DNA of 64,000 bases from Anaerocolumna cellulosilytica. Its GTDB lineage: Bacteria; Bacillota; Clostridia; Lachnospirales; Lachnospiraceae. The notes beneath the pieces were generated by a model. The model was not told where the DNA came from and did not search any database. It saw nothing but the letters and a program-made list of their open reading frames with translations. Positions 7,085 to 58,562 of this stretch are shown here, in pieces; position 1 is the first letter of the stretch, and each line of letters starts with the position of its first letter. Made by a program: the position numbers and the translations under genes. The stretch is from assembly GCF_014218335.1 (NCBI RefSeq), contig NZ_AP023367.1:3349501-3413500 (forward strand), given 5' to 3'.

Positions 7085-7113
7085 AAGAACTCCCATCTGT
7101 GCGCACTTGCACA
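7085..7113 (-). promoter_or_regulatory. Hairpin-SD module before hisG
   Basis: On the minus strand TGTGC and GCACA form a stem around a 6-nt loop (7098-7102 with 7109-7113), then GAT, GGGAG (7094-7090) as ribosome binding site, 5 nt and ATG. The same layout occurs before four other genes in this window. Confidence 0.65.
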
Positions 7114-7269
7114 TATAAAAAAAGGTACCGTAACAGTTTTTTATAATATAATAAGTTTCAGGCATTTGCTAATACATCCACCTGATATTTTAATAAACAG
7201 CATAAACTAATTTTTTGCCTGTAGAAGTTTAAACTATTACCATAAATATCCGGCAGACATTTACTAGGA

Positions 7270-8526
7270 TTACATAAAATCCTGAATTCTTGCCGCTGTT
7301 ACCGTTCCTGTATCTGACTGAATTACCTGGATTAACTCTGACTCGGTAAAGTAAAGAATCCCACCAATTCCATTCCTCCTGGAATATGCAATGTATTCAT
7401 CGATTTCTTTTTCTTCTTCCACTGCCAGCAACTCTATATTCATACTTTGGCTTCTGAAATGATTTGCCAAAACAATTGCATTTTTTAGAAGATGTTTTTT
7501 ATATAATATCAGGGTGTTTTCCGGTTCCCCTTTTATTTCAATTTTTTGTCTTGAAAGAGCCAATAACAACTGATCAACTAAGATGGCTAGTCCGATTGCC
7601 GGTGCTTCCTTACCGAACTGTCCCACCAAATTATCATATCTTCCTCCATTTGCTATAGTATCTCCGGTACCATAGGTATATGCACGGAATATGATTCCTG
7701 TATAATAATTGTATTTGCTTAACATTCCAAGGTCAAAGGTAATGTATTGTTCCAAACCGTATACAGATAATATATCATAGAGTTGTTCCAGACGTTCAAT
7801 CGCCTGTAGTGCCCTTTTATTTTTTGTTAGCGCTTTTGCCTCAGATAGTTTCTCAAGATTGCCAAAAAGCTCTGGAAGGGTCAAAAATACTTTTTTCAGT
7901 TCCGGGCTGATATCTTTACTGGATATTAACTCTTCCACACCAAACATATTTTTCTGTTCGATTAGATGACGCAGTTGAGACTCTTCTTCCGCATTAAATC
8001 CGGCTTCCTCCGATAAACCGCAGAAAAATTCTGCTTCACCAATTTCTACCTGAAATTCCTTCAGTCCGGCATCTAATAGGCACTCAATGGTTAAAGCCAG
8101 CATTTCTGCATCCCCCTGAGGAGTTGCATCATTGATAAGCTCTGCACCTAACTGGGTAGATTCCTTTAATTTCCCTTGATAACTGCTGTTATTTATGAAT
8201 GTACTTCCCATGTAACAAAGCCTGATAGGAAACATTTCTTCTTTGTAGTATTTTGCTGCACATCTGGCAATAGATGGAGTAATATCCGGCCTTAATACCA
8301 ATGTATTTCCTTCTCTGTCAAAAAATTTATACATGTGCTTAGGGGCTACAGTTCCTCTTTCCTGACTGAAAATATCAGCAAATTCAAAGGTCGGTGTCTG
8401 TATGTCCTTAAAACCGTGAAGCTTCATTATATGATGAAGTTTATTCTGAAGTACCAGTTTTCGTTCACATTCTGCATTATAAATATCTCTCACACCTTCC
8501 GGTGTATGTAATAATCTTTCTATCAT
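7270..8526 (-). CDS. hisZ: ATP phosphoribosyltransferase regulatory subunit HisZ
   Basis: 418 aa paralogue of the class II histidyl-tRNA synthetase core that has become the allosteric subunit for short HisG. Core motifs seen are LLHTPEGVRDIYNAE at the N-terminus, FADIFSQERGTVAPKHMYKFFDREG and LRPDITPSIARCAAKY, and FDLGMLSKYNYYTGIIFRAYTYGTG with ANGGRYDNLVGQFG. A full anticodon-binding domain is reduced to a short C-terminal region. Position as first gene of the his operon, followed by a short hisG, supports HisZ over HisS. The start at 8526 follows AAAGGTG by 4-5 nt; ATG at 8541 is the alternative. Confidence 0.93.
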   Translation of the reverse strand: MIERLLHTPEGVRDIYNAECERKLVLQNKLHHIMKLHGFKDIQTPTFEFADIFSQERGTVAPKHMYKFFDREGNTLVLRPDITPSIARCAAKYYKEEMFPIRLCYMGSTFINNSSYQGKLKESTQLGAELINDATPQGDAEMLALTIECLLDAGLKEFQVEIGEAEFFCGLSEEAGFNAEEESQLRHLIEQKNMFGVEELISSKDISPELKKVFLTLPELFGNLEKLSEAKALTKNKRALQAIERLEQLYDILSVYGLEQYITFDLGMLSKYNYYTGIIFRAYTYGTGDTIANGGRYDNLVGQFGKEAPAIGLAILVDQLLLALSRQKIEIKGEPENTLILYKKHLLKNAIVLANHFRSQSMNIELLAVEEEKEIDEYIAYSRRNGIGGILYFTESELIQVIQSDTGTVTAARIQDFM

Positions 8527-8708
8527 GTTGCACCTTTGCATAACATATCATTCACAGATGTGTTACTGAGCACCCTTTCTTATCTGTATTTTGATAGCTT
8601 TCTATTTAATAAATAACTAAAACACGACGTGAAATCCTACTATTAACTATTCTTCTTTCTACTTCACCATGGTAACGTGATAATTCACTACCATATCAAT
8701 GTCAACCT

Positions 8709-8737
8709 ATTATATTACAATTGATATCTGCTGTCAA
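8709..8737 (-). promoter_or_regulatory. Consensus sigma-A promoter of the his operon
   Basis: On the minus strand -35 TTGACA (8737-8732), a 17-nt spacer and -10 TATAAT (8714-8709), identical to consensus. The -35 contains the original recU stop codon (AGT TGA CA) and directly abuts the left target duplication of the IS element. The 180-nt leader to hisZ shows no T-box anticodon or acceptor-binding motif that I can recognise; a stem GGTAGTGA/TCAC..TACC lies just after the expected +1. The gene-free stretch 8527-8868 otherwise holds only the IS left end. Confidence 0.85.
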
Positions 8738-8763
8738 CTGTTATCCTTTTCTTTTTCACGTTC
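8738..8763 (+). repeat. Left copy of the IS target-site duplication
   Basis: This 26-bp stretch (27 bp if base 8737 is counted) is identical to 10340-10365. It begins CTGTTATCC and ends CACGTTC. On the minus strand it is the last codons of recU. Confidence 0.9.
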
Positions 8764-8868
8764 TCTGAACCATTTTTGATAATGTCTTAAGTAACCACAA
8801 GTGATTATGTCCCAAATGAGTAATCCATGTTACACTATATCCTCATGACTTACAGATGAGGAGACATT

Positions 8869-10266
8869 ATGAGAAAGGTCAAGTTGACTATGAATGAAGA
8901 AAAACGTTATGAAGTAATAAAGAAGTTAGTAGACACAAACGGAAATAAAAAGAATGCTGCCTTGAAGATCGGTTGCACCGAAAGACATATCAATAGAATG
9001 ATTGCAGGATATAAACGTGATGGTAAATCCTTTTTTATACATGGAAACAGAGGTCGGACTCCTGCTCATGCTCTTTCAAAAGAAACCAAGCAAACTGTCC
9101 TAGATTTATATCGTAGTAAGTACTTCGATACGAATTTTACTCATTGTATCGAGCTTCTAGAGAAGTATGAGGGAATTTCTATTTCTGTATCTACATTGAA
9201 CTCTATTTTAGAAAAAGAATATATTCTTTCTCCAAAAGCTACCCGATCAAAAAAAAGAAAAACCAAACTAAAACTTAAACATTTGAAAACACAAACTAAA
9301 TCTAAAAAGATACTAGCAGAGTTGCAATCCAATATCGTTGCAATCGAGGATGCACATTCCAGACGTCCTAGATGTGCTTATTTTGGCGAAATGCTTCAAA
9401 TGGATGCTTCGATCCACTTGTGGTTCGGTGATACGAAAACTCAGCTTCACATCGCTGTCGATGATGCAACTGGTACTATTGTCGGTGCTTACTTTGATGA
9501 ACAAGAAACTTTAAAAGGATACTACAATGTGTTTCATCAAGTACTTACTGAGTATGGTATTCCCTATTTATTTTTTACCGATAACCGTACAGTTTTTGAA
9601 TATAAACAAAAAAACGCCCCTTCTATCGAAGAGGACACATACACACAATTCGCTTATGCTTGTAAACAGCTAGGTGTTGAAATCAAGACCAGCAGTATAC
9701 CACAAGCAAAAGGTCGAGTGGAACGATTGTTCCAAACCTTACAATCTCGCCTACCAGTCGAATTACGCCTGGCAGGCATAAACACACTTAGCGAAGCAAA
9801 TGCATTCTTAAACTCCTACATAAAAGAATACAATGCCAAGTTTGCTCTAGAGACCAATCTTATCAAATCTGTCTTTGAAAAGCAACCCGTTTTAGAAGAA
9901 ATAAATCTTGTTCTTTCTGTTCTTACAGAAAGAAAGATAGATAATGGACACTGTTTGAAGTTTAAAAATAAGTATTTTAAGACACTTGATAAGAACGGGC
10001 ATCAGGTACACTTTTATAAGGGGACAAAGGCAATGGTAATAGAAGCATTTGACGGTAATAAATACTGTTGTATAGATGAGAGTATTTATGCGCTAGAAGC
10101 AATTCCGTCACATGAGAAAATATCAAAAAACTTTGATCTTACGCTGTCGCAGAATAGAACAATAAAGCGGAAGATACCAGGGATGCATCATCCTTGGAGA
10201 AGGCAAGAATTCTGGCGTTTTGTTAAAATGCAGGAACACCACTGGAATGATGAAGTCCCTGCTTAA
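8869..10266 (+). CDS. DDE transposase, IS1202/ISNCY type
   Basis: 465 aa. The N-terminal 60 residues form a helix-turn-helix (KKNAALKIGCTERHINRMIA) followed by a second putative DNA-binding region with a basic stretch near 125-148 (KATRSKKRKTKLKLKHL). The rve-like catalytic core has D179 in EMLQMDASIHLW, D238 in LFFTDNRTVFEY and E285 in QAKGRVERLFQTLQ, so the DDE triad is complete. The C-terminal 100 residues are the beta-rich tail common in this group. It is the only protein gene on the plus strand and runs convergently with recU. No frameshift or internal stop is seen. Confidence 0.93.
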   Translation: MRKVKLTMNEEKRYEVIKKLVDTNGNKKNAALKIGCTERHINRMIAGYKRDGKSFFIHGNRGRTPAHALSKETKQTVLDLYRSKYFDTNFTHCIELLEKYEGISISVSTLNSILEKEYILSPKATRSKKRKTKLKLKHLKTQTKSKKILAELQSNIVAIEDAHSRRPRCAYFGEMLQMDASIHLWFGDTKTQLHIAVDDATGTIVGAYFDEQETLKGYYNVFHQVLTEYGIPYLFFTDNRTVFEYKQKNAPSIEEDTYTQFAYACKQLGVEIKTSSIPQAKGRVERLFQTLQSRLPVELRLAGINTLSEANAFLNSYIKEYNAKFALETNLIKSVFEKQPVLEEINLVLSVLTERKIDNGHCLKFKNKYFKTLDKNGHQVHFYKGTKAMVIEAFDGNKYCCIDESIYALEAIPSHEKISKNFDLTLSQNRTIKRKIPGMHHPWRRQEFWRFVKMQEHHWNDEVPA

Positions 10267-10275
10267 ATAGATAAA

Positions 10276-10297
10276 AGCACCAGCCACAGCTGGTGCT
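10276..10297 (+). terminator. Hairpin after the transposase gene
   Basis: AGCACCAGC and GCTGGTGCT pair perfectly over 9 bp around CACA, 9 bp after the transposase stop. The following T-tract is weak (AATGTTTAAAATTT). It may end transposase transcription or block read-through from recU into the element. Confidence 0.6.
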
Positions 10298-10323
10298 AAT
10301 GTTTAAAATTTATTAGGACATTC

Positions 10324-10887
10324 TCAAAAATGCTTGACACTGTTATCCTTTTCTTTTTCACGTTCATCCATTTCTTTCGCAATATTTTCAATATAATGGA
10401 TATATAAATTATTTACACATTTTATCTCATTATCCGTACACAGCTCCTCTAGGCGAAAACTTTTTCTTCCTCCTTCTAAAGCTCTGTTCCAGAAATTGAG
10501 TAATTTATTATAAGGTAAATAATGATATAGATTCCTTTTGGAAAAATAAATCAGCAGGAAAGAAATCCCTCCCTGCTGTTCAAAATCTTCCATAAATTTC
10601 ACCTGATGATCATGTATATTCTGAAGAGCAAATGTATCGGTGGCACATTCCTTTGCATCAAAACATACCGGTATCCCCTGAACTACCCCTATATAATCTA
10701 CCGTACTTTTTTCTTCGAAATAGGCAAGGGTTATATGTCTTTTCTCCTTATCAATACAAGTGGGCGTAATAGGGGTGGGAATCTTCTGAATAAGAGCCAA
10801 TTTTTTTTCCCGGTATCTGGAATTGGTAAGGTTAATCAACTCTTCCAGTGCAGACCCTCTAAGACCTCTGGAATTCCATGAAGGCAT
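10324..10887 (-). CDS. recU: Holliday junction resolvase RecU, stop codon replaced by IS sequence
   Basis: 187 aa. RecU resolves four-way junctions in recombination and segregation in Firmicutes. Family features: RGSALEELINLTNSRYREKK, ALIQKIPTPITPT, ITLAYFEEKSTVDYIGVVQG, the catalytic IPVCFDAKE and FEQQGGISFLLIYF. The fold and active-site residues are complete. The last four codons (Val-Lys-His-Phe) and the stop come from the right end of the IS; in the pre-insertion sequence, rebuilt from the left target copy, the protein would end ...KDNS followed directly by TGA. The effect on function is therefore expected to be slight. A good GGAGA site precedes the ATG. Confidence 0.94.
   Translation of the reverse strand: MPSWNSRGLRGSALEELINLTNSRYREKKLALIQKIPTPITPTCIDKEKRHITLAYFEEKSTVDYIGVVQGIPVCFDAKECATDTFALQNIHDHQVKFMEDFEQQGGISFLLIYFSKRNLYHYLPYNKLLNFWNRALEGGRKSFRLEELCTDNEIKCVNNLYIHYIENIAKEMDEREKEKDNSVKHF
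10340..10365 (+). repeat. Right copy of the IS target-site duplication
   Basis: Identical to 8738-8763, and to base 10339 if the ambiguous first A is counted. It lies within the recU coding sequence. Confidence 0.9.
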
Positions 10888-10917
10888 GTCATATCTCCTT
10901 TCTCATATTTACAGTAT

Positions 10918-11062
10918 AGGATTAGGCAATTGCGAAATGATACATCTTGGATGTAGGCGAACTCACCAACGTTAAAGGTGACTTGCCACCGCATCGGAAC
11001 CTGTTTTGGTGATTTTGACTGGTTCTGACACACACAATAGCCGTTGCACAATTGTCTAATCT
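10918..11062. mobile_element. MITE-like repeat between the RluA-type gene and recU
   Basis: A stretch of about 145 bp is bounded by imperfect inverted repeats, AGGATTAGGCAATTG at the left and, as reverse complement of the right end, AGATTAGACAATTG. Both sides are flanked by the direct repeat ACAGTAT (10911-10917 and 11063-11069). It has no convincing coding potential. It separates recU from the preceding gene and may have brought or removed regulatory sequence. No transposase with these ends is in the window. Confidence 0.55.
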
Positions 11063-11080
11063 ACAGTATTTTAGTAGGTA

Positions 11081-12052
11081 TTAACTTACAAATAAACTTT
11101 CCTGTATTTTTAAAAAAAGTTCTTCCGGTTCTGCCTTTACCGTTTTAGTAGATAAATGTGCAAACGCACCGCCTAGTTCGGGAAATGTTAATTCATAAGC
11201 ATGAAGCAATTGGTGGTTTAGCCGGTGGCTTCTCTTAAACTTTGCATTTAATGCCTCATCTCCATACTTGGTATCTCCCAATATAGGGTGTCCTATACTG
11301 CTTAGGTGGGCACGTATCTGATGTGTTTTTCCAGTAATCAGCTTTACTTTTAATAAAGTAAAACCTGTGCTTAAATTGATAGGAATATATTCCGTCTGAA
11401 TCGGTGACTGGTTGGGTCCCGGTTTCTGGGTTATGGTAACCTTGTTAGTCCTTTCATCCTTTGCTAAATAGCCTGTAATCCGCTTTGCTTCCTTTATAAC
11501 ACCCTTTACAATGCATATATAGTATTTATCTAACTTGCGCTCTCTAAACAATTCTGACATTACCTGCAACCCTGCCAGTGTCTTACCTGCTACTACAAGA
11601 CCACTGGTATTTCTATCCAAACGATTACATATACCGGGTTTAAAGGTTATAAGCTGTTCTTCTGTTAATTGTCCAGATTCAAGCAGATAAGCCTGTACAT
11701 GCTCAACAAGAGATATATCCTCTTTTTCTGCTTTTTGTGACAATAACCCAGCTGGTTTATTAATTATAAGAATTTCAGAATCTTCATAAATAACGGAAAG
11801 TTCCTGTTTAATAGGAACGACTGTGACCGCCTGGCTGAAGTTCTGTATTGTTTCCTCAGACAAAAACAGTCTGATTTCATCGTTCACCTGTGTTTTTTCA
11901 GACCCTTCTGCTTTCTTACCGTTTAAGGTTATATTTTTTTTACGGAGCATTTTATAGATAAAGCTTTTTGGAGCTTTTCCAAGCAGCTTCATTAGCAACT
12001 TGTCAAGTCTCTGTCCCGCCTCATTTTTCTCAACTACAATAAGTTTCATCAT
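11081..12052 (-). CDS. RluA-family 23S rRNA/tRNA pseudouridine synthase (RluC/RluD-like)
   Basis: 323 aa. The N-terminal S4 RNA-binding domain (AGQRLDKLLMKLLGKAPKSF, then NITLNGKKAEG) is followed by the catalytic domain with GICNRLDRNTSGLVVAGKT carrying the catalytic Asp, and by LITGKTHQIRAHLSSIGHPI near the C-terminus. This is the RluA superfamily; which uridine it modifies cannot be told from sequence alone. The start codon overlaps the stop of the HAD gene, with AAGGA just upstream, so the two are likely co-translated; ATG at 12049 is equally possible. It groups with two other rRNA modification genes in this region. Confidence 0.9.
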   Translation of the reverse strand: MMKLIVVEKNEAGQRLDKLLMKLLGKAPKSFIYKMLRKKNITLNGKKAEGSEKTQVNDEIRLFLSEETIQNFSQAVTVVPIKQELSVIYEDSEILIINKPAGLLSQKAEKEDISLVEHVQAYLLESGQLTEEQLITFKPGICNRLDRNTSGLVVAGKTLAGLQVMSELFRERKLDKYYICIVKGVIKEAKRITGYLAKDERTNKVTITQKPGPNQSPIQTEYIPINLSTGFTLLKVKLITGKTHQIRAHLSSIGHPILGDTKYGDEALNAKFKRSHRLNHQLLHAYELTFPELGGAFAHLSTKTVKAEPEELFLKIQESLFVS

Positions 12053-12720
12053 TACATCCTTTTATCATATAATACTTCCCGAATAGATTCCACATAATAA
12101 TCTGCCAACTCCTGCTTAGCCAGCGTATCCATTTCTGATGCCTGATCAAAAACGGCACAGACCTTCATACCCGCACTTTTACCTGCCATGATACCTTGTA
12201 TCACATCCTCAAACACAAGACATTCTTCGGGCAGCACTTCTAAATCTTTTGCAACCAGTAAGTATATATCCGGAGATGGTTTCCCCTTTTCTACCTCACA
12301 AGATGTTCTAATAGAATCAAAATAAACACTGATACCAAGTTTTTCCGTTACCAATTCTACTAATTCTCTAGAATTACTGGTAGCTATCCCAGCCTTTCTT
12401 CCGGTTTTCTTAAGCAGTTCTAACAATTCCTTTGTACCTTCTTTTAGAGGGACTTCGTTGGCATATTTTTCCCATGCCATGCTGCTCCATTCCTCTTTTA
12501 TTTCATCAATTGAATCTGCTATTCCAAATCTATCTTTAAAGTACTGAGCGGTCTCTGTAAAACTCATACCCGTAATTGCAGGTTGTAAATCCCCTGGAAG
12601 TACTATATCAAACTTCTTTAAGTACTCTACATCAATTTCCTCCCATAACCACATGGAATCAATTAAGGTTCCGTCTAAATCAAAAACCACCGCTTTTATA
12701 TCCGCTAATATATTTTGCAT
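12052..12720 (-). CDS. HAD-superfamily phosphatase/phosphomutase, beta-phosphoglucomutase-like
   Basis: 222 aa. The four HAD motifs are visible: VVFDLDGTLIDSMW (nucleophile Asp and acid/base Asp), ATSNSRELVELV (Ser), KGKPSPDIYLLVAKDL (Lys) and CLVFEDVIQGIMAGKSAGM (acidic pair). A helical cap lies between motifs 1 and 2, as in the subclass I group that includes beta-phosphoglucomutase and phosphoglycolate phosphatase. The substrate cannot be assigned. It sits 6 bp after the RsuA-type gene and overlaps the RluA-type gene, forming a three-gene unit. Confidence 0.88.
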   Translation of the reverse strand: MQNILADIKAVVFDLDGTLIDSMWLWEEIDVEYLKKFDIVLPGDLQPAITGMSFTETAQYFKDRFGIADSIDEIKEEWSSMAWEKYANEVPLKEGTKELLELLKKTGRKAGIATSNSRELVELVTEKLGISVYFDSIRTSCEVEKGKPSPDIYLLVAKDLEVLPEECLVFEDVIQGIMAGKSAGMKVCAVFDQASEMDTLAKQELADYYVESIREVLYDKRM

Positions 12721-12726
12721 GCAGTA

Positions 12727-13461
12727 TCACCCTTTTAATTTTTTTAATTCAGCTTCTGTTAACTTTCTATATTCTCCCTTTTTAAGGCTATTATCCAAAA
12801 CAAGCTCTCCCATTTGCAGACGTTTTAAATAAATGACTTCTTTTTTTACTGCTTCAAACATCCGTTTAATTTGATGAAACTTGCCTTCATATATGGTTAT
12901 CTCTACTTCTGAGACATCATCCGCCTTTAAAATGTTTAACCGAGCCGGAAGTGTTGTAAAATCCTCTTCCAGTTTTATGCCGGTCTTAAAAATATTAACA
13001 TCTTCTGCTGTGACTCTTCCTTTCACTTTTGCATAGTACAGTTTGGATATATGCTTTTTAGGAGAAAGCAGTTTATGAGCCAGCTCCCCATCATTGGTTA
13101 TTAAAAGCAAGCCTTCCGTATCCTTATCCAGACGACCAACCGGAAAAAGCTCTTTTTTCATGAAATGTTCTCTTTTCATACCTTCCTGTATCAAATCTAG
13201 TACAGTCGTGTGAAGATTGTCAGTCGTGGCAGAAACCACTCCTGCCGGTTTATGAAGCATATAATATTCCATTGCTGCATATATTAATTCACTACCATCA
13301 AAGGCAACCCTATCTCTGCTTACATCAATTTTCCTATCCGCTGATTTTTCTATTTCTCCATTCACTGTAACCTTGCCCTTTTTGATATGAAGTTTTACTT
13401 CGCTTCTAGTTCCCGTCCCCATATCAGCAAGAAATTTATCTAAACGCACCAAGCCAGCCAT
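12727..13461 (-). CDS. RsuA-family rRNA pseudouridine synthase
   Basis: 244 aa. The N-terminal S4 domain (VRLDKFLADMGTGTRSEVKLH) is joined to the catalytic domain with PVGRLDKDTEGLLLITNDG, which contains the catalytic Asp, followed by GKFHQIKRMFEAVKKEV typical of the RsuA/RluB/RluE branch. Its size and the presence of the S4 domain fit RsuA, which forms pseudouridine 516 in 16S rRNA, but RluB-type specificity cannot be excluded. First gene of the small cluster with the HAD and RluA-type genes; GAGAGGATG precedes the ATG. Confidence 0.9.
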   Translation of the reverse strand: MAGLVRLDKFLADMGTGTRSEVKLHIKKGKVTVNGEIEKSADRKIDVSRDRVAFDGSELIYAAMEYYMLHKPAGVVSATTDNLHTTVLDLIQEGMKREHFMKKELFPVGRLDKDTEGLLLITNDGELAHKLLSPKKHISKLYYAKVKGRVTAEDVNIFKTGIKLEEDFTTLPARLNILKADDVSEVEITIYEGKFHQIKRMFEAVKKEVIYLKRLQMGELVLDNSLKKGEYRKLTEAELKKLKG

Positions 13462-13647
13462 GTTATCATCCTCTCTTTATCATGCTAAATAATTATTTGA
13501 TGGAATCAATCTAAAGCACCCCAAAAAGAATTCCTGGGCAAGTCACCCTATTATTTGAGTTATTCTGCCTAGTTACCTAAACAAGGTGTTTTGAGCTAGC
13601 TGTCATACAAATAAACAGAGCTGTAAACGCTCTAAACCAAATACTGC

Positions 13648-15065: not shown

Positions 15066-15869
15066 TTATCTCAGGCTTTGAGCCCGGTATCCCTCTGATA
15101 TAATGTCCAGTTCTTTATGAAAGCGCTGTAACTGCTCTAAGTCACCTGTTTCATATATTTGAAAAAACTCGTCCTGAATTTTTATAACTTCTCTTTTATT
15201 TGCCACTTTATATAGGTTTTGAATATTATTCAATATATCTGCAACCATATTCGCCTTTATTTTAAAAGAATTCTGTGCATCCATAATTTCACCTCTGACA
15301 GAAGACATTTCCTGATCAAGGGCAATAATGGCATCTGCTGCCTTGGACAACCTTCCTTTAATATGTTCCGGCATATTTTGTTTGTATTTATATTGCAGAG
15401 AATGTTCTATGGTAGCCCAGAAATTCATGGCTAATGTACGTATCTGTATCTCTGCTTGTACTTTTTTTGTTCCTTCTAAAGTCTGAACGGAATAATAGAT
15501 GATTAGGTGATAACTTCGATAGCCACTGGATTTCATATTCTTTATATAATCCTTCTCACTCTTAATCTCCATGTCCGTACGTTTATTGATAATTTCTACA
15601 ACCTTTTGAATGTCCTCAACAAACTGGCATATAATACGAATTCCGGCAATATCTTCTATTTTATCCTCTATATCCTTTAAAGGAATTTCCTTCTTTTGTG
15701 CTTTTTCCAAAATACTTGATATCGTCTTAACTCTGCCATGCACCTGTTCAATGGGTGAATATGCCCCCATATTACGATATTCTTCTATTAAATGATTGAA
15801 CTTAACCACTAGCTCATCCACCGTTAAAACATAGGGATCAAGTATCTCTCTCCACATTTGAATTTTCAT
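15066..15869 (-). CDS. Small alarmone synthetase (RelA/SpoT-domain GTP pyrophosphokinase)
   Basis: 267 aa single-domain (p)ppGpp synthetase of the YjbM/YwaC type, without HD hydrolase, TGS or ACT domains. Typical elements are VHGRVKTISSILEKAQKK, IEDIAGIRIICQFVEDI, DYIKNMKSSGYRSYHLII, and AEIQIRTLAMNFWATIEHSLQYKY, containing the GTP-site Tyr and the conserved Glu and His. A C-terminal helical tail of about 70 residues follows, as in RelQ tetramers. It is probably cytosolic and raises (p)ppGpp on stress. It is transcribed from an extended -10 promoter at 16027 and its start is preceded by a hairpin-SD module; rsmF follows 23 bp later. Confidence 0.92.
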   Translation of the reverse strand: MKIQMWREILDPYVLTVDELVVKFNHLIEEYRNMGAYSPIEQVHGRVKTISSILEKAQKKEIPLKDIEDKIEDIAGIRIICQFVEDIQKVVEIINKRTDMEIKSEKDYIKNMKSSGYRSYHLIIYYSVQTLEGTKKVQAEIQIRTLAMNFWATIEHSLQYKYKQNMPEHIKGRLSKAADAIIALDQEMSSVRGEIMDAQNSFKIKANMVADILNNIQNLYKVANKREVIKIQDEFFQIYETGDLEQLQRFHKELDIISEGYRAQSLR

Positions 15870-15914
15870 TTAAACTCCCATCTGTGTGCTCTAGCACTAC
15901 CAGCACTTGCACAC
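15870..15914 (-). promoter_or_regulatory. Hairpin-SD module before the alarmone synthetase
   Basis: On the minus strand GTGTGC (15914-15909) pairs with GCACAC (15889-15884), enclosing a 19-nt region that contains a smaller hairpin; then AGAT, GGGAG (15879-15875), 5 nt and ATG. A partial second copy, GCACAGATGAGG, lies about 80 bp upstream near 15960-15975. The surrounding sequence 15870-16026 is leader only. Confidence 0.65.
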
Positions 15915-16026
15915 GTACAAATCATGATGTTGAAAAAATATCTTTTTTCAATTTATAGCCTCATCTGTGCGTACTGGCGTAATTATTATATTAAATTTTT
16001 ATTCCTTAATCTGCCTGCTCGTGGAT

Positions 16027-17224: not shown

Positions 17225-17232
17225 TACTATCG

Positions 17233-22928: not shown

Positions 22929-23201
22929 CTATAGCCTGTGCATTTTATTAAAAATGTCCTCATGCTGGGCTTTAATAATAACTCCTATCTCTTCACCAAT
23001 CTTCTCCAATTCCGTTGCAAGTTCTTCGAAGTTTTTCGGTGTCTCGTTGGCATCTACAATCATCATCATGTTAAAGTATCCCTGAACGATTGTCTGGGAA
23101 ATGTCCAGAATATTAACCTGGTTCTCTGCTAAATAGGTACATACCTTAGCGATGATTCCTACACTGTCTTTTCCTACTACTGTAATAATTGTCTTTTTCA
23201 T
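22929..23201 (-). CDS. ACT domain protein (UPF0237)
   Basis: 90 aa, a single ACT domain: TIITVVGKDSVGIIAKVCTY with the glycine ligand-binding turn, VNILDISQTIVQGYFNMMMI, and a second half ending IGVIIKAQHEDIF. ACT domains bind amino acids or small ligands as dimers; this one carries no effector domain, so it probably acts on a partner, most likely the UPF0210 protein encoded 123 bp downstream. The start is preceded by a strong hairpin-SD module (23202-23232). Confidence 0.93.
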   Translation of the reverse strand: MKKTIITVVGKDSVGIIAKVCTYLAENQVNILDISQTIVQGYFNMMMIVDANETPKNFEELATELEKIGEEIGVIIKAQHEDIFNKMHRL

Positions 23202-23232
23202 CTTCAGCTCCCGTCTGCGACCCTCGGTCGCA
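23202..23232 (-). promoter_or_regulatory. Hairpin-SD module before the ACT domain gene
   Basis: On the minus strand TGCGACC and GGTCGCA form a perfect 7-bp stem with a 3-nt loop (23232-23226 with 23222-23216), then GAC, GGGAG (23212-23208), 6 nt and ATG. The strongest stem of the family in this window, and different in sequence from the others, so the shape is kept while the bases change. Confidence 0.65.
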
Positions 23233-23251
23233 TATAAATATAAAATGTATT

Positions 23252-33973: not shown

Positions 33974-34095
33974 TATTATTCCCATTGCATAGCAAATTTC
34001 TTAAAATTGCGCTACTGCCACAAATAATCCAGTTGAAAAAAGAAACACGCGGCTTTCCTTTCTAGTTTATTTTCTTTCAACCATACCTTTATAAA

Positions 34096-34130
34096 AGTTA
34101 TTTCACACTAGCTCCCATCGCATGCCGCTT
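34096..34130 (-). repeat. Orphan copy of the hairpin-SD-like element
   Basis: On the minus strand ACAGAAGCGGCATGC, then GATGGGAG, resembles the module before fliL (ACAGAAGGGGCATGC...GATGGGAG). No open reading frame of useful length begins within 40 bp after it. It lies in the 193-bp gap between the SwrB-like and YceG-like genes. Confidence 0.5.
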
Positions 34131-34164
34131 CTGTTTGAAGATTCAGCACTGCTACATATCAGGG

Positions 34165-34190
34165 TGTGAAATTGCATTCTATTTCACACT
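34165..34190 (-). terminator. Hairpin overlapping the stop of the SwrB-like gene
   Basis: GTGTGAAAT and ATTTCACAC pair over 9 bp around AGAATGCA on the minus strand; the stop codon TAG lies inside it. There is no T-tract after it. It may stabilise the 3' end of the flagellar operon transcript or end it weakly. Confidence 0.45.
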
Positions 34191-34835
34191 ATCCTTATAC
34201 AAATCAATAACAAGCTTTACTTCTCCTTGTCCTAGTTCTAAAGTTTTTGAGATGTCAACGATAGAAAAACCCTGTGAATACATTTCTAGTATTTTTTGAT
34301 TGTGGTTAGTGGTTAAATCTTCATTATTTTTTTCAGTAATTATAGGCTTTTTATTCTGTTTATCTTCTATATTTTTCTTATCAGGTACAATCTTTTGTAT
34401 CTCATTTACAGCCTGCTTATTGAAAGTATTGTCTTTTACCGATGAATCTGTCGCATTAACACGCTCAATATCCTTCATTATATTCTTAAGTTCCGTTTCT
34501 TTTTCATTCAGCATATTATATAAAAATACCACTTCTTCATGGTTTTGACTGATTTTTTCTAATAATTGATTTGAAAAATCATTAACGGCAATTATTTTTT
34601 CATTTGATATCTGACTCAATTTATCGTCAACCTTTATTACAGCCTCTTCTGAAGCTTCCTGTAATAAAACATTTATTTTTTTCTTAATATCTTGTATTTC
34701 TGTTAAACTTAACTCCCTTTGGCTTACCAAAGCTTCATATACTTCGTTGCTATGATTCGATTTATCTACCAGAAAGCAGCTTATAATAATTACTGCAATT
34801 CCCATCAGTATTAAAAATATTACTATAGGTGTCAT
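34179..34835 (-). CDS. SwrB-like membrane protein of the flagellar operon (DUF6115 type)
   Basis: 218 aa. One N-terminal membrane helix (VIFLILMGIAVIIISCFLV), a long coiled-coil region (about 30-130) with heptad-like Leu/Ile spacing, a linker, and a C-terminal helix-turn-helix-like motif NQKILEMYSQGFSIVDISKTLELGQGEVKLVIDLYK. The same architecture and ending occur in SwrB, which in Bacillus subtilis follows sigD and promotes basal-body assembly. Here it lies at the end of the same gene cluster. The match is by architecture, not by strong overall identity. Confidence 0.7.
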   Translation of the reverse strand: MTPIVIFLILMGIAVIIISCFLVDKSNHSNEVYEALVSQRELSLTEIQDIKKKINVLLQEASEEAVIKVDDKLSQISNEKIIAVNDFSNQLLEKISQNHEEVVFLYNMLNEKETELKNIMKDIERVNATDSSVKDNTFNKQAVNEIQKIVPDKKNIEDKQNKKPIITEKNNEDLTTNHNQKILEMYSQGFSIVDISKTLELGQGEVKLVIDLYKDSVK

Positions 34836-52951: not shown

Positions 52952-52956
52952 AATTG

Positions 52957-53934
52957 TTACTCCTCTCTGATAATTGATGAAATTCTTACTGCATAAGTAT
53001 CTGAAGATGCGCCTGGTAACGCCTTGAATTTATTTATGTTACCTACGTAAATATCTAATTCATCATCGGTTTTTGTATTTAACTTGATAATATCTCCTAT
53101 TTGCAGCCCTAAAAAGTCATTGACAGAAATTGCGCTTTTGCCAAGAACTGCTTTAATCGGAACTTTTGCTTTGGATATAGCCATTTCAATAAATTCCTGA
53201 TAACTGTCATCATCTTTTACTTGCATTGTTGAGAACCAATATTTCGTATTTAACTTATCTACTACACTCTCCAAACATGCATATGGCAAACAGACGTTCA
53301 TCATCCCTTCTACATTACCAATCTTTATGTTCATAGTAACGATAGAAATCATCTCACTAGGAGCTATAATCTGAGCAAATTGAGAATTTGTCTCAATCCT
53401 TGTAAGCCTGGGTTCCAATTGAATCACATTATTCCATGGCTCACTGAGCAGATTTGTACATACATTAAAAATTCGTTCTATAATAATTAACTCAATTTCA
53501 GTAAATTCTCTTGCTTTTTCTAAGGGAGAACCACCGCCACCTAACATCCGGTCAACCATAGCATAACCCAGATTGTCAGCAAGCTCTATAATTATATTCC
53601 CTTCCAAAGGTGAAAAATCTATTATACCTAATAGTACTGGGTTAGATAATGCATTTGTAAACTCTGAGTATGCGACTGCTTCAGAATTTATTACCTCCAC
53701 TTGTACATTTTTTCTAAAGTAAGCCGGTAAATTCGTAGAAAGCAATCTCCCATAATGTTCAAATATTATCTCTAAAGTTCTAAGGTGCTCTTTTGAGAAT
53801 TTTGATGGTCTGGCAAAATCATAATTTTTAACAGCTCTTTCGCCGTTCCCCTTAAATTCGTCCGCGTCTAGTTCACCACTGCTTAACGCCTTAAGCAGAT
53901 TGTCAATCTCATTTTGAGACAAGACGTCGCCCAT
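52957..53934 (-). CDS. fliM: Flagellar motor switch protein FliM
   Basis: 325 aa. VLSQNEIDNLLKALSSGEL at the N-terminus is the CheY-binding motif; the middle CheC-like domain includes LADNLGYAMVDRMLGGGGSP; the C-terminal SpoA domain is at about 250-325. FliM forms the C-ring wall and receives CheY-P. The start at 53934 has GGAGG 8 nt upstream; ATG at 53940 would be too close to it. It is 5 bp before fliY and 70 bp after fliL. Confidence 0.95.
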   Translation of the reverse strand: MGDVLSQNEIDNLLKALSSGELDADEFKGNGERAVKNYDFARPSKFSKEHLRTLEIIFEHYGRLLSTNLPAYFRKNVQVEVINSEAVAYSEFTNALSNPVLLGIIDFSPLEGNIIIELADNLGYAMVDRMLGGGGSPLEKAREFTEIELIIIERIFNVCTNLLSEPWNNVIQLEPRLTRIETNSQFAQIIAPSEMISIVTMNIKIGNVEGMMNVCLPYACLESVVDKLNTKYWFSTMQVKDDDSYQEFIEMAISKAKVPIKAVLGKSAISVNDFLGLQIGDIIKLNTKTDDELDIYVGNINKFKALPGASSDTYAVRISSIIREE

Positions 53935-54004
53935 TGTCATTACCTCCCGGGTGATTACTTAATACTATAATAGCACATATTTCGAATAAAATCACCATTT
54001 TGTT

Positions 54005-54574
54005 TTATTCTGTTACCATATTCAGTGATACGCTAAATATAAAATCAGAGTCAAAGTATTCCTGAATTTTTAACAAAATATCTTCTTTCAATTTACTTTT
54101 TGTTTCAACTGTATTAATCTCCTGCATCGTATAACTTCTAACTTGATCACTAACAATTTCTTTTAGTACACTTAAATTGGTCTCCACCTTTGGCTGAAGT
54201 GCCTTATAGTCCTTAGCCTTCGTGTTAATAGATAAAGACACAGAAACCAACGCATAATGATTTTTACTGTTAACAGCTGTAGTACTATTATTAGAGGTAG
54301 TACTATTATTAGAGGTAGTACTGTTAACAGTTGTATTCTTTAGATTAACTGTTAAATCAGTGGGAAATTGATATACTTCAATATCCTTTATATCTACTGC
54401 CTTACTTTTTTCATCTGTGCCTTCTAACTCCAAGTCAATAGAAGTAGCCACTTTAGATATCAGTTCATTTGTTCTCATGGTTGTCGGAACTACTGCAAAT
54501 ACAAGTACAGCAGCAAGTACCATATTTAATATTCCAATTGCTAATATTATAATTGTCAAGAGATTCTTTTTCAT
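54005..54574 (-). CDS. fliL: Flagellar basal body protein FliL
   Basis: 189 aa. One membrane helix (LLTIIILAIGILNMVLAAVL) and a periplasm-side domain with conserved HYALVSVSLSINTKAKDYKA and the closing FIFSVSLNMVTE. FliL surrounds the stator and supports torque. Residues near 85-105 hold a short Asn/Ser/Thr repeat (NSTTSN units) unusual for the family. I choose ATG 54574 since GGGAG lies 5 nt upstream, within a hairpin-SD module; ATG at 54586 would overlap it. Confidence 0.88.
   Translation of the reverse strand: MKKNLLTIIILAIGILNMVLAAVLVFAVVPTTMRTNELISKVATSIDLELEGTDEKSKAVDIKDIEVYQFPTDLTVNLKNTTVNSTTSNNSTTSNNSTTAVNSKNHYALVSVSLSINTKAKDYKALQPKVETNLSVLKEIVSDQVRSYTMQEINTVETKSKLKEDILLKIQEYFDSDFIFSVSLNMVTE
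54266..54335 (-). repeat. 18-bp tandem repeat in fliL
   Basis: The unit AGTACTATTATTAGAGGT on the plus strand is repeated about three times, giving the NSTTSN units in the protein. The units are nearly identical at the DNA level, so expansion is recent. Confidence 0.8.
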
Positions 54575-54600
54575 GATGTCTCCCATCCGCCTACACAGGC
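54575..54600 (-). promoter_or_regulatory. Hairpin-SD module before fliL
   Basis: On the minus strand GCCT and AGGC pair around GTGT (54600-54597 with 54592-54589), then GGAT, GGGAG (54584-54580), 5 nt and ATG. Weakest stem of the set, but with the same spacing as the others. Confidence 0.55.
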
Positions 54601-54614
54601 ATGCCCCTTCTGTC

Positions 54615-55421
54615 TTAATTATTTATATCATTATATATCTTAATTTCAACACGTCTGTTTTTTGCTTTTCCTACATCTGTCTCATTACCTGCTATCGGAT
54701 CATATTCCCCTCTACCAGTCCATTTTAAAGTTTTAGGATCCATTCCTTTCTCCTTAATCAGGTACTCTGCTGCATTTAGCGCTCTGGCAGAAGACAACCA
54801 GTTATTATCAGGATATGAACTGCTGCGTATTGGCACATTATCTGTATGCCCTTCTATTTCAATCAGGTATTTATCATACAGCTTAACGACGTCTCCGACT
54901 TTACCAAAAATAGGGAGAGCCTCTGTTTTAATATCTGCTTTACCTGAGTCAAACAAAATAGAACCGCTTAATGATATTTTGACATATTGAAAATTAGGGT
55001 CGATACTTAATTCTATGTAATCTTCCAAATTTTTTTTATCAACAACATCTGAAATTTCATCATACATTTCTTGTGAAGCCTTTTTTTGTTGCTCTAATAT
55101 TTCCTCAACCGCCTTATCAAAACTATCAACCTCTGCCTCATCATCACTTCGACCTGTCGTATTAAAATATTGATCAAAATCATTTAACTGAGATATACCA
55201 GATGAGATTAATCTACTTTCATCAATTACAGACCTTCCTCCACTAAAAATACTAAAACTATTAGTCATGGATTGTACTATTTTTTCATATTTCTCCGCGT
55301 CAACAGTAGAGGATGCAAAAAGTAAAACGAAGAAGCAAAGAAGCAGATTCATTAAGTCAGCAAAAGTATTCAGCCACGGCGCACCCGCACTACTCTCTTC
55401 GGCTTTTTTCTTCCTAGCCAT
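54615..55421 (-). CDS. motB: Flagellar stator protein MotB
   Basis: 268 aa. One membrane helix with the proton-path Asp (NTFADLMNLLLCFFVLLFAS), a plug/linker, and a C-terminal OmpA-like peptidoglycan-binding domain with LIEIEGHTDNVPIRSSSYPD and GRGEYDPIAGNETDVG. Together with MotA it forms the stator. The start at 55421 follows GAGGTTG; it overlaps motA by 8 bp, so the two are translationally coupled. Confidence 0.95.
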   Translation of the reverse strand: MARKKKAEESSAGAPWLNTFADLMNLLLCFFVLLFASSTVDAEKYEKIVQSMTNSFSIFSGGRSVIDESRLISSGISQLNDFDQYFNTTGRSDDEAEVDSFDKAVEEILEQQKKASQEMYDEISDVVDKKNLEDYIELSIDPNFQYVKISLSGSILFDSGKADIKTEALPIFGKVGDVVKLYDKYLIEIEGHTDNVPIRSSSYPDNNWLSSARALNAAEYLIKEKGMDPKTLKWTGRGEYDPIAGNETDVGKAKNRRVEIKIYNDINN

Positions 55422-56238
55422 CAACCTCACCACCTTCATTTACATCGAATTCAGCACGATTTGTGGGATTTAAGAAGGATTTTAATTTTTCTTCAATAAC
55501 TCTAGGATTTTCACCTGCTTGTATTGATAATAATCCCTCAACAATTACTTCTTTCATCATAATCTCAGCAGCATTTCTTGCTTTTAGTTTATTAACTACC
55601 GGAATACATATCCAGTTTGCTAATACGGAGCCGTAGAATGTGGTAACTAAAGCAACCGCCATATTAGGGCCTATCGTAGAAGGATCATTTAAATCCTTTA
55701 ACATATTAACCAGACCAATTAAGGTACCAATCATACCCCAGGCCGGACCCATGGCTGATAGCTTATCCCAAAAACCAATGGTATCACTATGTCTTCCTTC
55801 AATACATGACAATTCTGTTTCAAGAATACTTCGTACCAGTTCAGGGTCTGTTCCATCTACGATGAGCAGGATTCCCTTTTTCAAGAATTCATCCTCAATA
55901 CTATTAGCAGTCTCTTCCAATGCCAGAAGACCTTCTTTTCTGGCGACATTTGACAATGCAATAATATTTTTTATGGTTTCCACATCGTTGTAAGCAGGTG
56001 TCTGTAATACCAGCTTAAAGGAAGCCAACTTTTCAACATATGTTTTGAGACTTGGTTCCATGGTCATTAATGTTGTAAAAGAACCACCAAAGGTTATTAA
56101 TATAGACGGAATATCAATGAAGTTCATTATCTTTCCAAACGAAACACTCATTGTCCCCATATCAAATACAATACCAAAAATCATTAAAACAATTCCGCTT
56201 ATTAACCCTATAATTGATGCAATATTCAAAATAGTCAC
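55414..56238 (-). CDS. motA: Flagellar stator protein MotA
   Basis: 274 aa with four membrane helices, starting GTG (ribosome binding site AGGTGG). Typical parts: ASIIGLISGIVLMIFGIVFD, the cytosolic loop with PELVRSILETELSCIEGRH, and MGPAWGMIGTLIGLVNMLKD in the third helix with the conserved Pro of the torque path. Conducts protons with MotB and pushes on the C-ring. It precedes motB and follows flbD. Confidence 0.95.
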   Translation of the reverse strand: MTILNIASIIGLISGIVLMIFGIVFDMGTMSVSFGKIMNFIDIPSILITFGGSFTTLMTMEPSLKTYVEKLASFKLVLQTPAYNDVETIKNIIALSNVARKEGLLALEETANSIEDEFLKKGILLIVDGTDPELVRSILETELSCIEGRHSDTIGFWDKLSAMGPAWGMIGTLIGLVNMLKDLNDPSTIGPNMAVALVTTFYGSVLANWICIPVVNKLKARNAAEIMMKEVIVEGLLSIQAGENPRVIEEKLKSFLNPTNRAEFDVNEGGEVDG

Positions 56239-56264
56239 CCACCTAACTTAAGTCTTTTGTACTC

Positions 56265-56465
56265 CTAATCTTCTTTTAAAAATCTCGAAAAAAGTTCTTT
56301 TTTGTAACATTTTACAAGATTAATTACTTCTTGTCTACTCTCTTTTACCAGTATTTTTTTCCCATTCGTCAATGTTATGACTGTGTCAGGAATTTCTTCA
56401 ATTGTTTCTATTAAGTCGGCATTCACGGTTATATTAACATCATTCATTTTTGTTATATTAATCAT
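56265..56465 (-). CDS. flbD: Flagellar protein FlbD
   Basis: 66 aa, small cytosolic protein with ITKMNDVNITVNADLIETIE, DTVITLTNGKKILVKESRQE and a helix, the FlbD pattern. Its function in the operon is not settled; it usually lies between flgE and motA, as here. The start at 56465 has GGGG 5 nt upstream; an in-frame ATG at 56498 would put the ribosome binding site inside the gene. Confidence 0.88.
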   Translation of the reverse strand: MINITKMNDVNITVNADLIETIEEIPDTVITLTNGKKILVKESRQEVINLVKCYKKELFSRFLKED

Positions 56466-56602
56466 TTTATCCCCATGCCTTTCTACAAATCGGTTCACCT
56501 AAAATCGCAACTGTATATATCGCCCTATTTATTTATAGGACTGCTGTTATCTACTTTTACAATTTAAATTTATAACAGCAGTCCTAAATTAATTTACCTT
56601 AA

Positions 56603-58027
56603 TTAACGTTTCAGATTAATAAGCTCTTCCAAAAGGGAATCGGAAGTTGTAATAATTCTTGAATTCGCCTGGAAACCTCTTTGGGTAGTAATCATTTCTG
56701 TAAACTGAGCCGCCAAGTCTACATTTGACATTTCCACTACACCAGGTGTAAACTTTCCACCATCACTGCTTACATCATGTCCGATACCATCAAAAGAACC
56801 GGAGTTCTGGGTTTCAGAAAACATATTGTCACCAACTGCTTCAAGACCCGCAGGATTTGCAAAGGATGCAACTGCAATCTGACCTAATAATCTACTGTCA
56901 CCATTGTCATATTTACCAAAGATTTTACCGTAATTATCAACGCCAATGCCTGTCATATTACCTGCCTTACGTCCTTTACCACTACCATCTGAAGCACCAG
57001 TATTACCTTCAATTGTAGATTTACCACTACCGCCATACATAGTCATTTTTGAGAAATCTACAGCAATTGGCGTAAAGGGACTATTTCCTGTAGCTGTAAC
57101 CGTCAGATTTATTCCGGTATTACCTGCACCTCCTACACTGACAAAATCACCTGAACCTGAATGAAATTCAAGTACGGAAGGTGTGCCAGTAGCCGCTAAG
57201 GTTAAACCTGTTGTTGCGTTTACTGTTGCTGCGTAAGATACACCTCCAATAGCAACTGATGTAATTGCTGTTGCAGTATACGGATCTGCAGTTGTACCGG
57301 AACCTTTCATAAAGATAGATTTTCCGTTTTTATCAACGATATTATCTAAGGTAATATTGTATTGATTCGTTGCAGTACTCTGTTTCAAATTCAAGGTAGC
57401 GGTATATTCATTACCTGTAGCATCATAGAAAGTAATATTAGCCTTTCTTCCACTTGCTATTATCTGTGTATCCTTATTATCAATATTACCGGATACATAT
57501 GCTTTTGTAGTCCCTTCCGGTGCAGAATACAGATTTTCAGGCTTCATTATCTGTAAGGCTGATACCGTATCTTGAATTACTTTCGTTGAATCTTTAGGGT
57601 CTACCTGCCACCCCATTACCGTAGCACCAGTCGGTGTACAAAGTGTACCATTTGCATCTACATCAAAAGACCCAGCCTTTGTAAAGTAATTGGTACCTGC
57701 ATTGTTTACAACAAAGAAAGAATCTCCTGATATCATAAGGTCAAAAGGATTATCTGTTCTCTGTGCACCACCGGTTTTTGTAATGGCTGCTTTAATCCCT
57801 GCAACGCTGCTACCCAAACCAATCTGCATGGCATTACGTCCGGCAGCACCGGTATTCGTATTCGGACCGGTTGCACTTTGTACAGTCTGATAAAATATAT
57901 CAGAAAATGTAACGGAACTGGCTTTAAAACCTATTGTATTAACGTTCGCTATATTATTACCTATAACGTCCATCTTGGTCTGGTGAACACTTAAACCTGA
58001 AACACCAGAATATAATGATCTCATCAT
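56603..58027 (-). CDS. flgE: Flagellar hook protein FlgE
   Basis: 474 aa. N-terminal rod-like motif SLYSGVSGLSVHQTKMDVIG and NNIANVNTIGFKASSVTFSD, an exposed central region, and the C-terminal hook motif VDLAAQFTEMITTQRGFQAN, then SRIITTSDSLLEELINLKR. It polymerises into the flexible hook under the FlgD cap. A strong AGGAGG precedes the ATG. It comes after the TIGR02530-type gene and before flbD. Confidence 0.95.
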   Translation of the reverse strand: MMRSLYSGVSGLSVHQTKMDVIGNNIANVNTIGFKASSVTFSDIFYQTVQSATGPNTNTGAAGRNAMQIGLGSSVAGIKAAITKTGGAQRTDNPFDLMISGDSFFVVNNAGTNYFTKAGSFDVDANGTLCTPTGATVMGWQVDPKDSTKVIQDTVSALQIMKPENLYSAPEGTTKAYVSGNIDNKDTQIIASGRKANITFYDATGNEYTATLNLKQSTATNQYNITLDNIVDKNGKSIFMKGSGTTADPYTATAITSVAIGGVSYAATVNATTGLTLAATGTPSVLEFHSGSGDFVSVGGAGNTGINLTVTATGNSPFTPIAVDFSKMTMYGGSGKSTIEGNTGASDGSGKGRKAGNMTGIGVDNYGKIFGKYDNGDSRLLGQIAVASFANPAGLEAVGDNMFSETQNSGSFDGIGHDVSSDGGKFTPGVVEMSNVDLAAQFTEMITTQRGFQANSRIITTSDSLLEELINLKR

Positions 58028-58110
58028 AATGTAATGACCTCCTTATTAGTGGGTGTGTAATTACCCTGTCTGTCAATCAAGGGTACTATGCCTCCATTCG
58101 GTCCAGCATT

Positions 58111-58509
58111 TTAAATGATTACAGCACCATCAATATTAGTAAAAATTTTATCCTCACCGTCATTCACGGCTGTAATTACAGTGTTATTTCTGACATTTAC
58201 AATAAAAGCAATGTTGTCAACCATAACCAAGGATTCTTTAATTCCTTTTTCCTGTGCTTTCTTAGCACCGGTATTAAGCCTTTCCAGTTGTTTGTCCGAT
58301 AAATCGATATTCCTGCTAGCCAATCTTTCATTCGCATGCCTTGAGAATTTCAGAGAACCGGTTTGTTCCAACTGTTGCTGCTTTAATAATTCAATAAAGG
58401 GTATTCCTTGACCTTCCGGTACCTGACTGCTTATCTTATTTTTATTTTTTAAGAGCTGGCCGGTCATTTGCTCTATTGAATTAAAATTTGTTTGTGAAAT
58501 CTGTTTCAT
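58111..58509 (-). CDS. Small flagellar operon protein (TIGR02530/FlgBiosyn-like)
   Basis: 132 aa. Motifs SRHANERLASRNIDLSDKQL and VMVDNIAFIVNVRNNTVITA match the uncharacterised flagellar-operon family found between flgD and flgE (also called YlzI-neighbour, TIGR02530). It is hydrophilic, with no membrane segment. The start is set at ATG 58509 because GGGAG lies 6 nt upstream within a hairpin-SD module; a reading from 58560 would run through the hairpin. Role unknown, perhaps hook assembly. Confidence 0.75.
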   Translation of the reverse strand: MKQISQTNFNSIEQMTGQLLKNKNKISSQVPEGQGIPFIELLKQQQLEQTGSLKFSRHANERLASRNIDLSDKQLERLNTGAKKAQEKGIKESLVMVDNIAFIVNVRNNTVITAVNDGEDKIFTNIDGAVII

Positions 58510-58562
58510 ACTTGACTCCCATCTATGTGTTGAAGCGCGTATTTTTCTTTGCACCTGCACAT
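58510..58562 (-). promoter_or_regulatory. Hairpin-SD module before the TIGR02530-type gene
   Basis: On the minus strand ATGTG (58562-58558) pairs with CACAT (58529-58525) at the ends of a long loop; then AGAT, GGGAG (58520-58516), 6 nt and ATG. Upstream, GCAGGTGCAAA is present twice (58550-58600), and GTAAG/CTTAC forms another small hairpin. The 58563-58686 gap holds nothing else that I recognise. Confidence 0.6.

Follow-up and report, generated by a model that had tools for sequence, protein, structure and literature searches.

Why should unrelated genes of one bacterium share, directly before their start codons, a hairpin followed at a nearly constant distance by GGGAG, a sequence that pairs with the tail of 16S ribosomal RNA (rRNA)? 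The question is raised by a 64,000-nucleotide (nt) stretch of Anaerocolumna cellulosilytica DNA (the window; positions 3349501-3413500 of a single-contig genome of 5,430,627 bases, here G000). A first-pass annotation of the window described such a hairpin-Shine-Dalgarno (SD) module at the starts of hisG, fliL and genes for an alarmone synthetase, an ACT protein and a TIGR02530-type protein, together with orphan and partial copies, and proposed either a small mobile repeat that brings a ribosome-binding site with it or a translational control site, possibly for CsrA or for temperature. The sequences that it named stand at the positions that it gave, and its core motif, GAYGGGAG, is commoner than in shuffled sequence (seven occurrences in the window against 1.99 ± 1.53, with 1 of 100 shuffles reaching seven). 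Here we describe the family of two-hairpin repeats to which the module belongs, and comparison of these sequences leads us to put at roughly 0.6 the probability that the module is a non-autonomous mobile repeat, resembling miniature inverted-repeat transposable elements (MITEs) or repetitive extragenic palindromes (REPs), that inserts 3′ of SD sequences and rebuilds them.

Reading 30 of 74 genome-wide pattern matches, and copies in relatives, revealed a unit of about 65-75 nt with two hairpins, which we term the type I element. It consists, in order, of hairpin A, (C)ATCC/(A)TCC or CTCC, TGATTTGTAY, hairpin B and AGATGGGAG, followed by 5-6 nt and the ATG; hairpin A (for example TTGAAAA..TTTTCAA or GTGTGAAAT..ATTTCACAC) and the constant TGATTTGTAY are parts that had gone unmentioned in the first-pass annotation. 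Hairpin A is present in 59 of 101 and 82 of 102 copies in two sets of copies that have no other copy before them. In many copies of G000 hairpin B is GTGTGC/GCACAC and frequently encloses one or more further hairpins; other lineages have a simple GCNNGC/GCNNGC stem and a TAAA-like loop. The stem sequence of hairpin B tends to be lineage-specific. We note that inner hairpins (AGTGCNNNNAGCACT-like units), nested or side by side, enlarge hairpin B at G000:C1:1035566-1035660, 1722125-1722191 and 400862-400927, and that this growth in G000 perhaps comes from internal duplication. We also note that another genome, G158, holds two type I subfamilies side by side, one with GTGTGC/GCACAC and mostly 5-nt spacers (L357, L360, L369, L370 and L372) and the other with GCGTGC/GCACGC, often a AGAGTGAAAG hairpin A, and mostly 6-nt spacers (L355, L361 and L364).

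Genome-wide recurrence, for which the first-pass annotation had suggested a motif search, was found by pattern and by covariance model alike. With at most one mismatch, GCACAGATGGGAG occurs at 74 places in G000 and its reversed control at none, while CAGATGGGAG occurs at 117 places against 2 for the control. A covariance model of the type I element (R1), with a structure set by hand and training rows picked by the string GCACAGATGGGAG, gave at least 123 matches in G000 at E ≤ 1 and at least 105 at E ≤ 0.01, totals that are probably lower bounds because 150 of 1776 and 150 of 1719 candidates, respectively, were scored; the window's own ACT site is missing among the matches listed at E ≤ 1. All 15 genomes of the genus match R1 at E ≤ 0.01, each having between 1 and 105 matches (150 candidates scored per genome). 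Two other members of the genus are G159, identical to Anaerocolumna sp. AGMB13025 over a stretch of 1500 bases, and G024, identical to Anaerocolumna aminovalerica DSM 1283 over 700 bases. Across the family, in a sample of 150 genomes from 149 genera searched with strict filters and 39 candidates scored each, seven genomes match, G000 included, representing six genera. A short-form pattern found 115 stretches in a collection of named species, titled Lachnospiraceae, Anaerocolumna, Parablautia, Kineothrix, Lachnoclostridium, Eisenbergiella, Clostridium sp. and unassigned Clostridiales/Clostridia; the long-form pattern had no match in the named genomes, a collection that may omit records near G000, and viral contigs gave no pattern match. 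Copies also form head-to-tail tandem arrays, with spacings of 75, 74, 70 and 66 nt in G000; the array at L276:2031-2555 has eight matched type I units spaced 70 nt apart, and seven of these share the same score. We set aside a coding leader that reads through the unit, since these tandem spacings are not all multiples of three.

The stems of the element vary in a compensating manner. Among 115 distinct aligned copies we counted 64 double-changed cells, as compared with 15.7 ± 3.5 in shuffles (none of 500 reaching 64) and at most 17 when the pairing partners were slid, a count that favours the hand-set structure because the alignment was fitted to a model carrying it. We read by hand the stems in eight sets of conserved orthologous starts. 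Of 12 outer pairs with a change, 8 can pair, where 1/6 would be expected by chance from one change alone; two of the eight concern a pair that G158 itself leaves unpaired. When a change common to two species is counted once, 5 of 8 pair (a hand count). The closing pair of hairpin B has four changes in these sets, two paired and two broken, and substitutions number 20 in 192 stem positions and 17 in 56 loop positions. The view of the first-pass annotation that the stem differences are compensatory, and the shape selected, is thus supported by these sequence comparisons.

To assess position relative to genes, we took the 104 of the 123 matches that have no further copy within about 110 nt downstream and asked whether a frame of 60 codons or more begins with an ATG 4-9 nt beyond the SD. 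This arrangement holds for 79 of the 104, as compared with 129 of 3965 positions drawn at random from the same regions (3.3%), 190 of 1975 other GGAG sequences on the same strand and none of the 104 reverse faces. With any start codon allowed, 88 of the 123 matches qualify, 79 of them at 5 or 6 nt. In 40 of 82 gene-start copies a same-strand open frame ends no more than 150 nt upstream, suggesting that many copies may be internal to operons, in which case translation, and not a promoter, would be the natural level of action. In other genomes, strict-pattern copies stand at ATG starts in 25 of 31 cases in the metagenome-assembled genome (MAG) SRR15510218_bin.35, in 16 of 21 in S29_Bin8, in 3 of 6 and 1 of 5 in two further MAGs, and in 17 of 30 in the ungrouped rest (six copies near a sequence end were dropped, and copies preceding another copy were retained).

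Orthologous starts both keep and lack the element. At the alarmone synthetase it is present in G000 and absent from the 150 nt before the start in all 13 congeneric orthologues listed. When 11 genes of G158 (of 19 fragments prepared) were searched in G152 and G161, 8 were found to keep it, and one gave an aligned element-free site (L361 occupied, L377 empty); L359 lacks a counterpart element in both relatives, with an unalignable left flank, and L365 is not comparable. We likewise searched 25 genes of SRR15510218_bin.35 in S29_Bin8 and read the 150 nt upstream by eye: four had no match, and of the 21 orthologue pairs a type I element is still present in the second MAG in 10 (degraded in one) and missing from it in 11 (L134/L412 ambiguous). 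Two of the 11 element-free sites align on both sides, L103/L413 and L129/L399 (L129/L154 being the same place as the latter); L119/L407 and L147/L404 show one edge or a near edge, and the remaining pairs are unaligned. We note that L400 of S29_Bin8 has a third hairpin-SD type, GCCGCCTGCGGCGGCGGAATGAGAGG, directly before the ATG where the related MAG has type I, and that similar sequences occur in L133 and L110.

The three occupied and empty sites that align on both sides (L129/L399, L361/L377 and L103/L413) all meet at GGAG. In each, identity on the left spans a native GGAG (AAGGAG, AAAGGAG or CTGGAG) and stops 0-2 nt beyond it, the extra DNA itself ends in GGAG, and identity on the right resumes 0-3 nt later. 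Consistent with a GGAG at the left edge, this sequence stands within 14 nt before hairpin A in 8 of 59 copies (3.0 expected) and in 18 of 82 (6.7 expected), or about 2.7 times the control.

These observations suggest a course of events in which an enzyme, presumably acting in trans, would insert the element just 3′ of GGAG. Intergenic GGAG is largely SD sequence, and copies would therefore land between an SD and its start codon; as the element ends in GGGAG, insertion would create a new SD 5-6 nt before the ATG, leaving the gene translatable, so that the step would probably be neutral for translation and the GGGAG of the element would be the SD in use. Thereafter hairpin A and the old SD would decay, with hairpin B and GGGAG persisting at the gene, and repeated insertion or slippage would give head-to-tail arrays whose last unit serves as the SD. 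We infer gain rather than loss as the direction of change. The first-pass proposal of a mobile repeat that provides the ribosome-binding site agrees with the roughly 100 matches, the arrays, the turnover, the three empty sites at GGAG and the kept SD position. Its stronger form, in which a dedicated transposition system targets the SD itself, inserts a portable ribosome-binding site with two hairpins between it and the start codon, and thereby rebuilds it, is one that we put forward tentatively, at somewhat less than even odds.

Several observations weigh against insertion by a mobile repeat at SD sequences. The alignments that define the junction number three and place it to within 0-2 nt at its left side and 0-3 nt at its right, and precise loss between two GGAGs could give the same picture in all of them; the polarity follows by parsimony at the alarmone synthetase alone, where the left flank is unaligned. 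Most single copies have no GGAG before hairpin A, and some that have one resemble old tandem copies. The conservation of GCACAGATGGGAG follows by construction from the choice of R1 rows, 25 of the 104 copies do not stand at a gene start as defined above, and in a sister family (type II, below) 6 of 30 pattern places are at SD distance, although some places with two mismatches may be non-members. In the strict-pattern set, which retains copies that precede another copy, none is at an ATG start in IMSAGC_011 (0 of 13) or Parablautia intestinalis (0 of 9). These two genomes are at the same time our main reason for regarding the element as primarily a mobile repeat and only in second place a translation signal: GGGAG is part of the element even where copies lie off starts, and hence its use as an SD looks secondary, a consequence of the landing site. 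Finally, no match to PF01797 (Y1 transposase) was found in the element-bearing genomes G107, G087 and G099, drafts that may miss genes (G107 and G087 carry 29 and 8 element matches), the four PF01797 loci of G000 are IS200-like and lack the element ends, and the element end AGAYNGGRG is absent at the 13 loci scanned of 20 PF01797 loci, with four locus pairs compared. We therefore do not favour a Y1 transposase as the mover; the copies in G000 follow T-rich stretches. We note that IS200-like elements stand directly after terminator-like hairpins with T-rich ends at L202/L208, L212/L215 and L209/L213/L216.

The same searches bear on the possibility that the repeat is a REP or bacterial interspersed mosaic element (BIME) of the REPtron class, moved by TnpA_REP (a REP-associated tyrosine transposase, RAYT) or by an IS200/IS605 transposase, with the SD position being merely what selection has left. 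Palindromes, high copy number and arrays speak for this account, as do the copies off ATG starts in IMSAGC_011 and P. intestinalis and the GTAY/RTAY that stands 5′ of hairpin B, where REPs have GTAG. Since GTAG itself is lacking and the PF01797 results just described offer no mobiliser with matching ends, we regard this origin as improbable.

A second alternative is genome-wide translational control, in which the TGATTTGTAY and AGAT flanks would bind a protein or small molecule and CTCC/ATCC would pair with GGGAG, closing the SD on a signal. The flanks are more conserved than an SD requires, albeit in a named set selected by these very strings; CTCCC..GGGAG pairing is possible in some lineages, RNAfold draws GGGAG paired in both example leaders, and hairpin B is largely retained at orthologous starts, as control would also require. 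However, the genes downstream have little in common: among 87 of their proteins (truncated at 300 amino acids) 108 Pfam families were matched at E ≤ 1e-5, none of them in more than four proteins. The SD is predicted to be as accessible as in leaders whose upstream parts were shuffled, both for 77 leaders of G000 (0.404 versus 0.378, p 0.43) and for 65 named leaders (0.401 versus 0.375, p 0.46), and the 21 leaders with CTCC/CCCC are no more closed than shuffles (0.47 versus 0.40); as modelled, folding indicates neither masking nor exposing of the SD. The position of the element turns over among congeners, and no Rfam family was found at an element in the window or at ten loci. A control site of this kind thus appears unlikely to us, though somewhat less so than a REPtron origin. 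We note that a match to the Rfam family mir-425 at L129:7674-7755 on the minus strand, away from any element, reached 40.8 bits (gathering threshold 60) and is presumably a chance stem or foreign sequence.

More specific versions of the control reading, a CsrA operator or an RNA thermometer at each start, seem very doubtful. GGA is present, the window has flagellar and stress genes, and csrA occurs in all 11 element-bearing genomes; of five genomes without an element match, three have csrA over the cut-off, one below it and one not at all, and thus gene content is compatible with CsrA yet does not discriminate. CsrA sites present GGA in a hairpin loop, whereas the GGGAG of the element lies 3′ of the stem, and the downstream genes have no functional coherence that would make a regulon, for which reasons we rejected CsrA as the leading reading. 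Masking of the SD, as in a thermometer, was set aside as well, given that predicted SD pairing is no higher than in shuffles. The suggestion of control by CsrA or temperature therefore found no positive support.

Which sites of the window belong to the mobile repeat that we favour can now be stated. Scores of the four type I sites are partly so by construction, because all four are R1 training rows; R3 is the covariance model of type II.

7088..7124, minus strand: type I element of hisG (R1 36.4 bits, E 1.2e-7; training row L003), with minimal hairpin B TGTGC/GCACA, AGAT, GGGAG (7090-7094), 5 nt, ATG
6437-7084: hisG gene (HisG Pfam, 7.7e-57)
15873..15924, minus strand: type I element of the RelA/SpoT-type alarmone synthetase (R1 71.6 bits, E 1.2e-17; training row), with hairpin B containing an inner hairpin, AGATGGGAG, 5 nt, ATG
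15066-15869: alarmone synthetase gene (RelA_SpoT Pfam)
15930..15951, minus strand: hairpin A of the alarmone synthetase element, TTGAAAAAAG..TTTTTTCAA, read from the sequence
15959..15970, minus strand: GCACAGATGAGG, possibly the decayed end of an upstream tandem copy
23206..23241, minus strand: type I element of the ACT-domain protein (R1 31.9 bits, E 2.2e-6; training row), with 7-bp stem TGCGACC/GGTCGCA, AGACGGGAG, 6 nt, ATG
22929-23201: ACT-domain gene (ACT Pfam)
33977..34092, minus strand: type II copy before 33973 (R3 49.2 bits, E 6.8e-8; partly a training row), with ATGGGA at SD distance from the ATG at 33973-33971
34110..34198, minus strand: type II, the former orphan (R3 84.7 bits, E 4.5e-15; training row L437)
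54575..54600, minus strand: fliL leader, in neither family
58514..58572, minus strand: type I element of the TIGR02530-type flagellar gene (R1 45 bits, E 4.3e-10; training row), with long hairpin B, AGATGGGAG, 6 nt, ATG
58111-58509: TIGR02530-type gene (Flagellar_put Pfam)

The five starts of the first-pass annotation thus reduce to four that share one module, as the fliL leader, even when search filters were switched off, matches R1 nowhere up to E = 10 and has no R3 match on the same strand. Its orphan at 34096-34130 and the copy before 33973 are real repeats that belong to the sister family with another hairpin B (the frame starting at 33973 matches Pfam YceG at 29 bits, below the cut-off of 32.4), and its partial copy near 15960 reads as GCACAGATGAGG, the possible decayed copy listed above. 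The fliL leader looks like a good SD that follows a stem by chance; for the family as a whole, coincidence of this kind is scarcely credible in view of the 74 versus 0 pattern places, the 79 of 104 copies at gene starts, the covariation and the conservation at orthologous starts.

The type II family follows the same plan, with a hairpin A of the same kind plus CCCTGATTT and a different, bulged hairpin B (TAGTGTGAAAT..ATTTCACACCCTGATTTGAGGCAGTGCC..GGCATGCAATGGGAGCT) ending GGCATGCAATGGGAG. Its pairs covary (16 rows), and at least 53 R3 matches were found in the genome at E ≤ 0.01 with 150 of 2971 candidates scored, two of them in the window. The loci (L419-L478) are mostly intergenic and only sometimes at SD distance; 6 of 30 are unreadable.

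Small dispersed repeats are usually pictured in spare intergenic DNA. The repeat described here sits between the ribosome-binding site and the start codon, a highly constrained spot, apparently by carrying the signal that it displaces. A dedicated system of the kind put forward above would enter essential genes without breaking them and would, over time, replace the start signals of about 100 genes in a genome. If the repeat does carry the signal that it displaces, it would amount to a natural experiment in which start signals are swapped across unrelated genes, would provide a marker of recent insertion in Lachnospiraceae and would allow tests of how a hairpin beside the SD affects initiation. 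Among the titles and abstract starts listed in a literature search, with subscription journals mostly outside its coverage, there was no earlier account of such an element.

Among known systems, leader RNAs that adjoin an SD (riboswitches, ribosomal protein leaders and CsrA sites) resemble the element in placing structure beside the SD of a gene, and differ from it in that the element is without a regulon, is without an Rfam match and occupies sites that turn over between congeners. Structured multi-copy motifs were also among the candidates of a 50-genome noncoding RNA survey, which reads such motifs as selfish and takes inconsistent orientation relative to genes as their mark (PMC11109978). 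The type I element shares structure and copy number with those candidates and departs from them in that none of 104 copies faces a start with its reverse side; in the main text of that survey neither 'Lachno' nor 'phytofermentans' occurs.

REPs, BIMEs and REPINs (REP doublets forming hairpins) are likewise short dispersed palindromes of high copy number that occur in clusters or arrays and have lineage-specific sequences (PMC8266576, PMC3116915), and a tetranucleotide, most often GTAG, stands 5′ of the palindrome in REPs (PMC8266576). The type I element is a short, multi-copy, mostly intergenic palindrome too. It has GTAY/RTAY in place of GTAG before hairpin B, and no linked tnpA_REP gene was found in G107, G087 or G099, drafts that may miss genes, or at the IS200-like loci of G000. 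Unlike REPs, it ends on the right in a GGGAG that in several lineages lies at SD distance, and its units, each with two unlike hairpins, are arranged head to tail. From non-autonomous IS200/IS605 elements it differs in that a parent insertion sequence (IS) with the same ends and a Y1 transposase was not found at the 13 loci scanned of 20 PF01797 loci, the IS200-like copies in G000 being other elements. The likeness to that group lies in two subterminal hairpins, A and B, one near each end. A further, possible likeness concerns insertion 3′ of a short fixed target, with the cleavage site carried in the right end: in all three pairs that could be aligned on either side of the element the junction is at GGAG, a small number with which precise loss also agrees.

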